Positions 23,400-26,370 of a stretch of 64,000 bases of DNA are shown piece after piece. Each line of letters starts with the position of its first letter. The first letter of the stretch is position 1. Both the position numbers and the translations under genes were made by a program. Under the pieces are notes generated by a model. The model searched no databases. It had not been told where the DNA came from and was given only the letters and a program-made list of their open reading frames with translations. The DNA lies in NCBI RefSeq assembly GCF_900095865.1, contig NZ_FMIZ01000007.1, positions 124,001-188,000 of the forward strand, given 5' to 3'. This DNA comes from Massilioclostridium coli. GTDB lineage: Bacteria > Bacillota > Clostridia > Oscillospirales > Ruminococcaceae.

Positions 23400-23680
23400 A
23401 AAAACAAAAAAGCCCTCCGTATCCTGTTACAGATACAGAGGACGAAAATACGATTTTCGTGTTACCACCTCTATTTACAGAACCCTCACGGATTACTGCC
23501 TCGGCAGGTCAAAGGACTGATCTGCTACGCAATAACGGGCGTACCCGATGCAGCCTACTAACAAGTTCGGCTACACAACTCCAAGATGTATTCAGCATAA
23601 GGCCAGCTGCGTTTTTTCACCACCCAAACGCTCTCTGTGAATCTGGAAAACTTTGCTTACTTGTTCTTTTCTCAGTTATT
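23400..23680 (-). promoter_or_regulatory. T-box riboswitch leader of tyrS (specifier TAC)
   Basis: On the minus strand the leader shows the AGAGAGCG box of stem I, a specifier-loop segment GAATACATC with the tyrosine codon TAC at 23590-23588, and the conserved T-box AGAGGTGGTAACACG (23473-23458) whose TGGT pairs with the tRNA acceptor end. A competing terminator (23442-23400: stem around GATACGGAGGGC with a T run) precedes the start codon. Uncharged tRNA-Tyr would stabilise the antiterminator and permit tyrS expression. Confidence 0.95.
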
Positions 23681-23686
23681 ATTTGT

Positions 23687-23715
23687 ATCCTAACACAAAG
23701 TTTTTTCGTTGTCAA
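23687..23715 (-). promoter_or_regulatory. Promoter of the tyrS T-box transcript
   Basis: Minus strand TTGACA (23715-23710), 17-base spacer, TAGGAT (23692-23687). The -35 element lies in the inverted repeat GTCAAC-C-GTTGAC (23711-23723). Confidence 0.8.
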
Positions 23716-23741
23716 CCGTTGACGGAAAAAATCTTGTTTTA

Positions 23742-23799
23742 TTCGTCAGAATGAGCCACGAGCGTTTGACAAAATTAAGGCTTGTCCTGGGGGTATACT
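23742..23799 (+). promoter_or_regulatory. Spo0A-type spoIIG promoter with 22-bp spacer
   Basis: TTGACA (23766-23771) and TATACT (23794-23799) are separated by 22 bases, the same unusual spacing known for the Bacillus subtilis spoIIG promoter. A perfect Spo0A box (TGACGAA on the minus strand, 23748-23742) lies just upstream, and TGACAAA (23767-23773, one mismatch to TGNCGAA) overlaps the -35 element. This matches an activator-dependent Spo0A promoter for spoIIGA-sigE. Confidence 0.8.
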
Positions 23800-23822
23800 G
23801 GAAATTGGACGAGGTGAACAAA

Positions 23823-24674
23823 ATGCAGGTGATATATTTAGACGTACTTTTAGCGGTAAACTTATTTGTGAATTACTTTTTGCTGTTATCCGTAAAATTA
23901 TTTTTCCACAGCAAGGTGAAACGTTGGAGGATGATTTCGGCGGCTGTGATTGGCAGCCTGTTTTCCTTGATGATTTTTCTGCCCGATCCAGGATTGTTGC
24001 TAACATTCCTCATCAAAGGGATTCTTGGTGTATTATTGGTATGGCTCTGTTTTGGTTACCAACAAAGGGGAATTTTTATTAAAACAGTCTTAGGCTTTTT
24101 TGGAGTTAATTTTTTGTATGCTGGTGTAATGATGGCACTCTGGATATTTGTCTGTCCTGTGGGGATGTATTGGAACAACGGTGTGGCGTATTTTCACATT
24201 TCCGCATTAGCATTGGTCATTGGAACAATTGTCGCTTATATTGTAGTACGTGTAATCTGTTTTTTATGGAACAAACGGGTACATGCCAAGGAGTTATACC
24301 AAATTAAAATTATATGGAATCAAAAAGAAGCCAATTTATCTGCTTTTTATGATACAGGAAATCGGTTAATCGACCCATTTACAGGACATCCTGTCGTAAT
24401 CTGTGAATATCAGGCAGTTAAAAATCTATTACCCGCTTCCATTCAGCAGGTTTTGGAATCTGGTCAATACATACAATCCACTGAGCTTTTGCAGGCGGTA
24501 AAATTCCATCTGATTCCATTCCAGACAGTAGGAGGAGAAAGCTTTATAGTAGGGTTTGCCCCCGACCAGTTTTATTTAGAAGAAAAACCGGTGAGCGGTT
24601 TTATGATAGGGATTACTGTGAATCATCTTTCCCATGGAGAGTTTCAAGCAGTCCTCCCAGCAAAATTCAATTAA
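23823..24674 (+). CDS. spoIIGA: Sporulation sigma-E factor processing peptidase SpoIIGA
   Basis: A 283-residue membrane aspartic protease that cuts the pro-peptide from sigma-E in the mother cell. The N-terminal half has five membrane helices (about 5-155); the C-terminal cytoplasmic part carries the catalytic FYDTGN with Asp177, followed by PVVICEY and GFAPDQFYLE typical of the family. The ATG at 23823 follows GAGGTG by 6 bases; the upstream open frame contains the promoter and is not used. First gene of the spoIIG operon, 13 bases before sigE. As usual, one catalytic aspartate is present per chain, implying dimer formation. Confidence 0.95.
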   Translation: MQVIYLDVLLAVNLFVNYFLLLSVKLFFHSKVKRWRMISAAVIGSLFSLMIFLPDPGLLLTFLIKGILGVLLVWLCFGYQQRGIFIKTVLGFFGVNFLYAGVMMALWIFVCPVGMYWNNGVAYFHISALALVIGTIVAYIVVRVICFLWNKRVHAKELYQIKIIWNQKEANLSAFYDTGNRLIDPFTGHPVVICEYQAVKNLLPASIQQVLESGQYIQSTELLQAVKFHLIPFQTVGGESFIVGFAPDQFYLEEKPVSGFMIGITVNHLSHGEFQAVLPAKFN

Positions 24675-24687
24675 GGAGTGAAAGGTT

Positions 24688-25401
24688 ATGTTTTTAAAAT
24701 GGCTATGGAAAAAACGGAATCAATTATTACGATATTTAGGGCTAGTGGATCCTGTCCATTACATCAATGGTGCGGATACCTTACCGCCCCCTTTAGATAA
24801 GGAACAGGAACAGATTGTGTTTCGAAAATTATCGGAAAATGACCCTTGGGCAAGGGAACAGTTGATTGTACATAATTTAAGGCTGGTTGTTTATATCGCA
24901 AAAAAATTTGAATCCACTGGAATTGGCATTGAGGATTTAATTTCGATTGGGACGATTGGGCTAATCAAAGCGGTAAACACATTTTCCCCTGAAAAAAATA
25001 TTAAGCTAGCTACCTATGCTTCTCGCTGCATTGAAAATGAAATTTTGATGTATTTAAGGAAAACCAATCCTTTAAAAAATGAAGTTTCGATTGACGAGCC
25101 ATTAAAAATTGATTGGGATGGAAACGAACTGTTGTTGTCCGATGTGTTGGGGACAGAAAATGATTGTGTGAATAAAGGAATTGAAGAACGGGTAGAGCGG
25201 GATTTAGTAGTAGATTGTATTAATAAGTTAGGAGATAGGGAACGGGAAATTATGCAGCTGAGGTTTGGCATGGTGGATGGAAACGAATATACCCAAAAGG
25301 AAGTGGCAGATAAAATTGGAATTTCCCAATCCTATATTTCCAGGCTGGAGAAAAAGATTATCACAAGGTTGAAAAAAGAGATAGAACGGGTTAATATCTA
25401 A
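24688..25401 (+). CDS. sigE: RNA polymerase sporulation sigma factor E (pro-form)
   Basis: A 237-residue sigma-70-family factor that drives early mother-cell transcription. The basic, hydrophobic N-terminus (about 1-27) is the pro-sequence removed by Spo[16 protein letters not shown] matches the processing region. Region 2 contains [37 protein letters not shown] and region 4 ends with the helix-turn-helix [32 protein letters not shown] lies before the ATG. sigG, which follows sigE in many Bacilli and Clostridia, is not here; tRNA genes follow instead. Confidence 0.96.
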
Positions 25402-25480
25402 TAAAATTGCTTTGTCGTTTTGGATGAAAAATTGCTGTTTAAAAAAATCGAAAAAAATAAAAATAAAATGAAAAAAAGTG

Positions 25481-25509
25481 TTGACAAATAAAAAGTGGTC
25501 TGGTATAAT
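25481..25509 (+). promoter_or_regulatory. Promoter of the tRNA cluster
   Basis: Full-consensus TTGACA (25481-25486), 17-base spacer, TATAAT (25504-25509) with an extended TGG just upstream; strong, as expected for stable RNA. Confidence 0.9.
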
Positions 25510-25551
25510 AATATTCGTCGCTTGAGGGAACACCCCGGACGGCGGATAAAT

Positions 25552-25627
25552 GGGAGCATAGCTCAGCTGGGAGAGCATCTGCCTTACAAGCAGAGGGTCA
25601 TAGGTTCGAGCCCTATTGTTCCCACCA
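25552..25627 (+). tRNA. tRNA-Val (anticodon TAC)
   Basis: Cloverleaf with acceptor stem GGGAGCA / TGTTCCC, the D-arm sequence AGCTCAGCTGG, anticodon loop CTTACAA reading TAC, TTCGAG in the T-arm and an encoded CCA. Confidence 0.97.
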
Positions 25628-25630
25628 TAC

Positions 25631-25707
25631 GGCCCGTTAGTTCAGTTGGTTAGAACGCTTGCCTGTCACGCAAGAGGTCGTCAGTTCGAGTCTGATACGG
25701 GTCGCCA
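25631..25707 (+). tRNA. tRNA-Asp (anticodon GTC)
   Basis: Acceptor GGCCCGT / ACGGGTC, anticodon loop CTGTCAC reading GTC, T-arm TTCGAGT and encoded CCA. Confidence 0.97.
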
Positions 25708-25749
25708 ACCAGTTGTCTGAAAGAGATTGATTACAAGGGCGACTGAAAT

Positions 25750-25825
<76 letters not shown>

Positions 25826-25857
25826 AAAGACCTTTTCTGAAAAGAGAAGGCAAACAT

Positions 25858-25933
25858 GCGGGTTTAGCTCATCTGGTAGAGCGCCACCTTGCCAAGGTGG
25901 AGGTAGCGAGTTCGAGCCTCGTAACCCGCTCCA
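25858..25933 (+). tRNA. tRNA-Gly (anticodon GCC), copy 1
   Basis: Acceptor GCGGGTT / AACCCGC, anticodon loop TTGCCAA reading GCC, encoded CCA. Identical over its full length to the copy at 26015. Confidence 0.97.
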
Positions 25934-25939
25934 TTTCTT

Positions 25940-25975
25940 ATCCAAAGTTAAAAGGTTTAACTTTGGATTTTTTAT
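25940..25975 (+). terminator. Terminator of the four-tRNA operon
   Basis: TCCAAAGTTAAA / TTTAACTTTGGA, 12-bp perfect stem, followed by TTTTTTA. Confidence 0.85.
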
Positions 25976-26005
25976 TTGTTATGATCGATTTTCATGTAGT
26001 ATAAG
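25976..26005 (+). promoter_or_regulatory. Possible separate promoter of tRNA-Gly copy 2
   Basis: TTGTTA (25976-25981), 18-base spacer, TATAAG (26000-26005), placed right after the preceding terminator and 9 bases before the second tRNA-Gly. Confidence 0.45.
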
Positions 26006-26014
26006 ATAGCATTT

Positions 26015-26090
26015 GCGGGTTTAGCTCATCTGGTAGAGCGCCACCTTGCCAAGGTGGAGGTAGCGAGTTCGAGCCTCGTAACCCGCTCCA
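26015..26090 (+). tRNA. tRNA-Gly (anticodon GCC), copy 2
   Basis: Identical 76-base duplicate of the tRNA-Gly at 25858. It lies beyond a terminator and so needs its own promoter or read-through. Confidence 0.97.
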
Positions 26091-26098
26091 AATGGTTT

Positions 26099-26133
26099 GC
26101 CTTATCCTTTTTAAATAAAGGGTAAGGCTTTTT
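26099..26133 (+). terminator. Terminator after tRNA-Gly copy 2
   Basis: GCCTTATCCTTT (26099-26110) pairs with AAAGGGTAAGGC (26117-26128), then TTTTTC. Confidence 0.85.
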
Positions 26134-26326
26134 CATTAGGGAACTTTTATAGAAGGATATGATAAGATACTAATTTTTAAGATGATTGATCATAAAATAT
26201 CTGCTATTAAAATTTATCTATGTAAAGAAAAGTATAGATAAATATTTTACAGATGTTGTAATTCTATAGGAAGTTCAATCTGATAAAGATAAATTTCCTT
26301 CTCTATGATTTTATTGGAATATCTGT

Positions 26327-26332
26327 TATAAT
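26327..26332 (+). promoter_or_regulatory. Extended -10 promoter before the GIY-YIG gene
   Basis: TGT directly followed by TATAAT (26327-26332); the -35 region is poor. A 10-bp AT-only hairpin (26212-26243) lies 90 bases upstream. Confidence 0.45.
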
Positions 26333-26370
26333 ATTTGTAGAATAGAATGAATGCACTGGGGGAGTATATT

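Follow-up and report, generated by a model that had tools for sequence, protein, structure and literature searches.

The spoIIGA-sigE operon analyzed here is preceded by what is, with a probability of roughly 0.88, a Spo0A-activated, sigma-A-dependent promoter. It was found in a 64-kb stretch of DNA (the window, meaning the whole of the stretch analyzed) and joins a sigma-A type -10 element to a -35-like hexamer 22 bp away. Most related promoters have the two elements 21 bp apart, and the substitutions found in relatives suggest that the motif over the hexamer is conserved as a Spo0A box.

The locus and its promoter elements

The promoter lies in a divergent intergenic region of the window, with tyrS (TIGR00234 match) on the minus strand and spoIIGA on the plus strand. 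The tyrS gene has a T-box leader on the minus strand (23435-23682). Its promoter, read from the sequence on the same strand, is composed of TTGACA (23715-23710), 17 bases and TAGGAT (23692-23687), and to the eye is of the ordinary sigma-A type. The stretch TTGTCAACCGTTGACGG at 23709-23725 contains an inverted repeat (GTCAA/TTGAC) that covers the tyrS -35. This stretch also holds a weak box-like GTTGACG, whose GAC is 47 bp upstream of the GAC of the proximal Spo0A box described below.

The spoIIGA gene (23823-24674, plus strand, ATG at 23823) encodes the pro-sigma-E processing peptidase. It matched TIGR02854 with an E value of 1.3e-53 and 182.3 bits, a score under the curated cut-off of 209.55. 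A likely ribosome-binding site, GAGGTG, was read at 23811-23816 on the plus strand. The sigE gene (24688-25401, plus strand) encodes sporulation sigma factor E and scored over the cut-off of NF006158 (366.6 bits). In many spore formers sigG comes after sigE. At least five tRNA genes were seen 3' of sigE (25401-26347), and no plus-strand ORF of sigG size was seen in that interval between sigE and the tRNA genes.

The -35-like hexamer TTGACA (23766-23771, plus strand) is a perfect -35 consensus, and the -10 element TATACT (23794-23799, plus strand) matches the sigma-A type. They are separated by a 22-bp spacer (23772-23793, plus strand), in which TTGTCC (23782-23787, plus strand) stands 6 bp before the -10. 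A candidate proximal Spo0A box, TGTCAAA on the minus strand (TTTGACA on the plus strand, 23765-23771), overlaps the hexamer and has one mismatch to TGTCGAA. A candidate distal box, TGACGAA on the minus strand (TTCGTCA on the plus strand, 23742-23748), has the same orientation and lies 23 bp upstream of the proximal box. The initial annotation had named a TTGACA and a TATACT 22 bases apart, a perfect TGNCGAA box upstream on the minus strand and a near-match over the -35, and all of these were seen in the sequence.

Promoters of the Spo0A-activated class have a sigma-A -10 hexamer, a -35-like hexamer 21-22 bp from it and a Spo0A box over that hexamer. In the window these are TATACT, TTGACA at 22 bp and TGTCAAA with its one mismatch; some relatives have the perfect TTCGACA. 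An ordinary sigma-A promoter would combine a spacer of about 17 bp with a conserved T at the second -35 base. The spacer in the window is 22 bp and the family mostly has C at this base, while the window itself bears T.

Could such a likeness be due to chance, the real promoter being at another place between the two genes? This explanation is hardly credible. A lone TGNCGAA heptamer is indeed at chance level in the window, with 19 observed and about 24 (23.8) expected; its count was rejected as evidence by itself. For this reason the distal box requires other support, and it is made weightier by its position. The pair of hexamers is another matter, with two matches to TTGACA-N16-23-TATACT in the window against 0.09 expected. 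Over the whole genome TTGACA-N13-25-TATAMT was found 114 times, compared with 23 for the reversed pattern (13 spacers). These consensus pairs peak at 17 bp: among the 100 listed of the 114, 63 have this spacer and five have 22 bp. Based on the reversed-pattern control, about 4e-5 chance pairs of the form TTGACA-22-TATAMT are expected per 130 bp of one strand. The pair in the window scored 17.9 and is by far the best in 23500-23822; the next scored 11.0 and reuses the same box. The named sister species C. methylpentosum has TTTGACA-22-TATAAT upstream of spoIIGA. Aligned locally with the window, the sister's sequence matches best over a segment that extends from TTTGACA across the -10 as far as the ribosome-binding site. 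This alignment was equalled by 0 of 1000 shuffles and also argues against chance. L002 and L009 have identical upstream sequences, and on this ground the same-genus genome G001 was taken as C. methylpentosum.

Conservation of the spacing among relatives

The spacing was compared across 208 distinct spoIIGA upstream regions, two from the genus (including the window), 71 from a named set, 45 from the family, 20 from other families of the order and 70 from the phylum. The named set was found via SigE similarity and not by taxonomic rank. We chose 60 family and order regions by hand from match lists, as well as 40 of the 70 from the phylum, whose remaining 30 were the best-scoring loci. Loci were dropped for having no spoIIGA match (L045, L083), a match starting too far into the gene (L063) or less than 100 bp of upstream sequence (L007, L030), along with five duplicates. 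Each region was scanned for TTYGACA and TATAAT 12-30 bp apart, with C and T treated neutrally, no preference for any spacing and a threshold score of 13.

A pair at or above the threshold was found in 175 of the 208 regions, compared with 6.25% of shuffled regions; the phylum set of 70 accounted for 21 of the 33 regions below it. Of the 175 scoring promoters, 166 had a spacer of 21 or 22 bp and nine a spacer of another length. Both members of the genus have 22 bp. Spacers of 21 and 22 bp were found in 61 and 2 of the 63 scoring promoters of the named set, in 28 and 10 of 41 in the family (about a quarter with 22), in 16 and 1 of 20 in the other families of the order and in 40 and 6 of 49 in the phylum. 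Outside the genus and family, 22 bp was seen in 9 of 132 scoring promoters. The usual spoIIGA spacer among relatives is 21 bp, not 22. The initial annotation had treated conservation in relatives as decisive, and a scoring pair at 21 or 22 bp in 166 of all 208 regions bears out its expectation for the spacing.

The same preference was recovered with a two-block motif fit that was initialized with TTNGACA and TATAAT and had flat spacing. This fit placed 85%, 67% and 69% of its weight at 21 bp in three sets; on shuffled sets the peak was 11-31% and the likelihood far lower. As a control, the upstream regions of 623 other ORFs from the window and the named loci (called mechanically, at least 100 aa) were scanned. 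Here 68 regions scored as high and 17 bp was the commonest spacer (23). Twelve control pairs had 21 bp, and a spoIIAA-like gene follows five of them.

Several further observations were made in these upstream regions. The motif TGTCC is present in the spacer of 8 of the 21 promoters with 22 bp and of 1 of the 145 with 21 bp. It was seen in the window (23782-23787) and in L002, L119, L124, L126, L145, L149 and L153, and in five of its promoters it forms an inverted GACA-N11-TGTC. On a SigE tree its presence changes at least six times, and two supported pairs on that tree bear on a possible tie to the 22-bp spacer. By eye, a recurrent CATATAATGGTAATAATTA-like element was seen tens of bases before the spoIIGA start codon in several phylum members (L099, L106, L108, L114, L117, L188, L197 and others). 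At about 847-977 of L035, ATCGACA-21-TATAAT is located upstream of a 315-aa ORF that appears DegV-like by eye and is possibly a further Spo0A target.

A probable Spo0A box in place of the -35 hexamer

The core of the Spo0A box is TGTCGAA (excerpt of PMC3485338). Its reverse complement is TTCGACA, which differs from TTTGACA at the second -35 base. A change from T to C at this base, as seen in relatives, makes a perfect box and spoils a -35; TTGACA is therefore best read as a Spo0A box. The base was counted at only 166 promoters, those with 21 or 22 bp. It is T in both genus members, C in 22, T in 14 and A in 2 of the 38 family promoters, and C in 6, T in 10 and A in 1 of those from other families of the order. 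In the 17-bp promoters with TATAAT from 61 family and order genomes, it is T in 3730 and C in 40, the latter slightly above the 22 matches to the reversed pattern. The family differs from these 17-bp promoters with a Fisher p of about 2e-32. Elsewhere T prevails, both in the named set (55 of 63, with C in the other 8) and in the phylum (36 of 46, with C in 5 and A in 5), so the case for a box and not a -35 rests on the family and the order.

These counts bear on whether the pair is an ordinary sigma-A promoter, with TTGACA as its -35, a poor 22-bp spacer and no need of Spo0A. The window's perfect -35 hexamer and the prevalence of T in the named and phylum sets would agree with this. The explanation is nevertheless very unlikely given the C in 22 of 38 family promoters, set against 40 C and 3730 T where the spacer is 17 bp, and given the lack of any 16-18-bp spacer among the 175 scoring promoters. 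A true -35 at TTGACA was rejected on this exchange of C and T between the family and the 17-bp promoters. The idea that the spacer conceals a canonical -35 at 17-18 bp was likewise rejected; when base composition was aligned on the -10, no TTGACA emerged there, and the only features were the GACA core and, 16-18 bp before the -10, a run of Ts.

The Spo0A box reading can also be examined through the conservation of single positions. In the motif fit on the family and order, the G, A, C and A of the core reached 95, 95, 97 and 91%, and the first T of the -35 reached 53%. This contrast was taken from the motif fit because the pair scan favors GACA over the Ts, while the fit weighted them alike at the start. 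A typical -35 shows the reverse. A quick SigE tree, built from 101 rows of the named set and the family and weak in many of its branches, shows at least 17 changes between T and C at the second base and at least 10 changes of spacer. This pattern of substitution suggests that the conserved TTYGACA acts as a Spo0A box, not as a -35. The initial annotation had likened the promoter to the Spo0A-activated architecture of B. subtilis spoIIG. The comparison supports the likeness, with 21 bp as the usual spacing and the TTGACA best read as a box.

Neighboring and distal boxes

Relatives also show conservation just upstream of the proximal box. Counted from the G of GACA, a C at -8 is present in 70% of the 57 genus, family and order promoters, in 85% of the Ruminococcus-type set and in 83% of the phylum set, where it is accompanied by an A at -7. 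The C at -8 fits the tail of a putative tandem box 10 bp upstream. The window has G at -8 and shows no such tandem box at about this distance from the proximal one. Only 3 of 166 promoters carry a box with at most one mismatch between -9 and -12. For the spoIIG/spoIIE class, the tandem box was treated as supporting and not obligatory.

At the position of the distal box, -23, a box in the same orientation with at most one mismatch was found in 9 of the 57 genus, family and order promoters (0 of 200 shuffles). With the window set aside, it was found in 8 of 56 (0 of 300 shuffles, with a maximum of 5 at any offset). It was found in 0 of 63 promoters of the named set and 1 of 46 of the phylum set, and no distal box was seen upstream of spoIIGA in C. 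methylpentosum. The boxes named in the initial annotation fared differently in relatives: the proximal one is conserved as TTYGACA, and the perfect distal TGACGAA is missing from the sister species and, at that offset, from the named set, though 8 of the 56 other promoters of genus, family and order have a box there.

For same-orientation boxes overall, the named set fell short of expectation (6 against 19.7) and the phylum exceeded it (32 against 12.4). Those of the phylum cluster at -33/-34 (10 of 46) and -53 (4 of 46) from the proximal box, in contrast to the -23 seen in the family of the window. Inverted upstream Spo0A boxes were considered as a further element and rejected for want of an excess (12 against 14.6 expected in the genus, family and order; 13 against 11.3 in the phylum). 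The named set had 24 inverted boxes against 14.1 expected, an excess that perhaps comes from close relatedness.

Related promoters at spoIIE and spoIIA

The upstream regions of spoIIE and spoIIAA were scanned as well. For spoIIE the best 30 loci of 57 genomes with a match were taken; two were truncated and 28 were used. For spoIIAA, the family and order sample held 50 of 57 genomes with a match (L257-L306; four were truncated and 46 used), and the phylum sample held the best 30 loci of 138 genomes (L307-L336; one was short and 29 were used). At spoIIE in the family and order, the best pair has 21 bp in 19 of 28 and 22 bp in 3 (shuffles, 2.5% and 5%). In the relatives examined, spoIIG and spoIIE both have 21 bp more often than any other spacing. 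At spoIIAA the best pair has exactly 21 bp in 27 of 46 family and order regions (shuffles, 4.5%), 13 of them at a score of at least 13, and in 3 of 29 regions of the wider phylum (shuffles, 4.7%). A tandem copy 10 bp upstream is clearer at spoIIAA of the order, with GAC at -10 in 6 of 27 and CCGACA as the commonest letters.

These promoters help to judge whether the GACA element at 21-22 bp could belong to some response regulator or activator other than Spo0A. The GACA/TGTC core is short and Spo0A binding to it is putative, which gives this idea some room. It is still quite improbable, since the substitutions track the Spo0A box TTCGACA, a tandem copy lies 10 bp upstream at spoIIAA, and spoIIG, spoIIE and spoIIA are classic Spo0A targets. 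C. difficile Spo0A was also shown to bind spoIIGA DNA in vitro, though weakly (excerpt of PMC3485338). A Spo0A box remains the preferred reading of the element.

In B. subtilis, spoIIG and spoIIE are sigma-A-dependent and spoIIA is sigma-H-dependent (excerpt of PMC12090719). The C. difficile spoIIA operon is controlled by both sigma-H and Spo0A (excerpt of PMC3789822), and sigH is listed among the genes of all spore-forming bacilli and clostridia (excerpt of PMC3533761). For the order to which the window belongs, we lean towards the view that the spoIIA (sigma-F) operon has passed from sigma-H to the Spo0A/sigma-A 21-bp class. The sigma-H-like motif GCAGGAWW was found at spoIIAA in 14 of 29 phylum regions (0.30 expected) compared with 1 of 46 order regions (0.40 expected). 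A second motif, AGGAWWT with GAA or GTAG 9-15 bp after it, was found in 11 of 29 and 0 of 46, respectively. A sigma-H scan that counted mismatches gave no clear excess even in the phylum set, and the exact motif count was used instead. The 21-bp spoIIA pair is present in 17 of the 22 genomes without a SigH match at E<1e-19 and in 10 of the 24 with one (Fisher p 0.019). This link between the pair and the absence of a SigH match is suggestive only; not all of the SigH matches span the model, and 0 of 61 genomes scored over the family cut-off.

Other findings count against such a switch. In 19 of the 46 order regions the best spoIIAA pair is not at 21 bp, and within 500 bp of the genome's own spoIIAA no such pair was seen, just a loose sigma-H-like match with one mismatch that 6% of shuffles reach. 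The pair at C. methylpentosum spoIIAA is weak (AATGACA-21-TATCAT, score 12.7).

Gene order varies at some of these loci. At 640-3717 of L014, spoIIAA, spoIIAB, sigF, spoIIGA and sigE form one run with GTTGACA-21-TATAAT before spoIIAA; spoIIGA sits behind sigF and has no such promoter of its own. The same pair precedes a spoIIAA-like gene in L011, L012, L013 and L063. If the takeover is true, Spo0A~P and the housekeeping polymerase would command spoIIA, spoIIE and spoIIG alike, and entry into sporulation in the order would bypass sigma-H at the spoIIA step. Some members would join spoIIA and spoIIG in one run behind a single 21-bp promoter. The need for sigma-H in sporulation entry would then become directly testable in this order.

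Spo0A and the proposed mechanism

The genome encodes one Spo0A over the family cut-off (TIGR02875, 267.3 bits). Its effector domain matched the solved Spo0A domain 1lq1, which we take to be B. subtilis Spo0A on DNA, with an E value of 6e-46. In this alignment TTSSRVERAIRHAIEVAW stands against TTASRVERAIRHAIEVAW, a stretch that presumably holds the recognition helix. In B. subtilis, Spo0A~P binds where the -35 would be read and the polymerase is repositioned. Spo0A~P is stated to act at B. subtilis spoIIG after formation of the closed complex, and work on the interaction of Spo0A with sigma is cited in the same article (excerpt of PMC12090719).

The geometry of the window's promoter, its conservation and the box-like pattern of substitution can be read from the compared sequences. 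By analogy with B. subtilis, Spo0A~P would dock on the proximal box (23765-23771), a place otherwise read as a -35 by sigma region 4. It would probably also dock on the distal box at 23742-23748, about two helical turns upstream. Sigma-A RNA polymerase would hold TATACT, and the distance of 21-22 bp would set the contact between Spo0A and the polymerase held at the -10. Activity without Spo0A would be low: with the -35-like hexamer some 5 bp farther away than in a normal promoter, the polymerase should start poorly until contacted by Spo0A~P. For the window itself, we infer both the binding of Spo0A and the start site. The mismatch in the proximal box and the degenerate upstream half adjacent to it (G at -8) count against this mechanism. 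So do the missing distal box in C. methylpentosum and the named set, the 33 regions under the threshold and the nine scoring promoters with other spacers, the prevalence of T at the second -35 base in the named and phylum sets, and, in the genome itself, the weak spoIIE pair (ATCAACA-21-TATAAT) and the lack of such a pair at spoIIAA.

Significance and comparison with known systems

An oddity of B. subtilis, in which wrong spacing is rescued by Spo0A, turns into a rule, visible by eye in the majority of the sampled spore formers. The second -35 base would tell a Spo0A box from a -35, and this criterion should aid the search for Spo0A-activated promoters in uncultured gut clostridia. A literature search made largely outside subscription journals found no comparison of this spacing across clostridia, no reading of the -35 as a Spo0A box from its substitution pattern and nothing on a switch of spoIIA from sigma-H to sigma-A and Spo0A.

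The spoIIG promoter of B. subtilis has a 22-bp spacer and two pairs of Spo0A boxes. Like it, the promoter in the window precedes spoIIGA-sigE and has a sigma-A -10, a -35-like hexamer 22 bp away over a Spo0A box and a further candidate box upstream. The window differs in having one proximal box, whose adjacent tandem half is degenerate, and a single box 23 bp upstream in place of two pairs. Its surroundings also differ, with a divergent tyrS and its T-box leader upstream and tRNA genes instead of sigG after sigE. The B. subtilis spoIIE promoter, which has a 21-bp spacer, belongs to the same class as the promoter in the window but controls a phosphatase gene and not sigma-E.

Among clostridia, the spoIIGA promoters of C. 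acetobutylicum and C. perfringens were characterized earlier (as stated in an excerpt of PMC3789822). At the C. difficile spoIIE promoter, a methylation site lies over a predicted Spo0A box near the -35 (excerpt of PMC13395437). For C. difficile spoIIGA, a sigma-A promoter with GTGACA and TATAAT boxes was mapped by RNA-seq, and sigE expression was down 240-fold without spo0A (excerpt of PMC3789822). The C. difficile promoter shares the GACA core and the sigma-A -10 with the promoter in the window; unlike the reading given here, it was reported simply as a sigma-A promoter in that excerpt.
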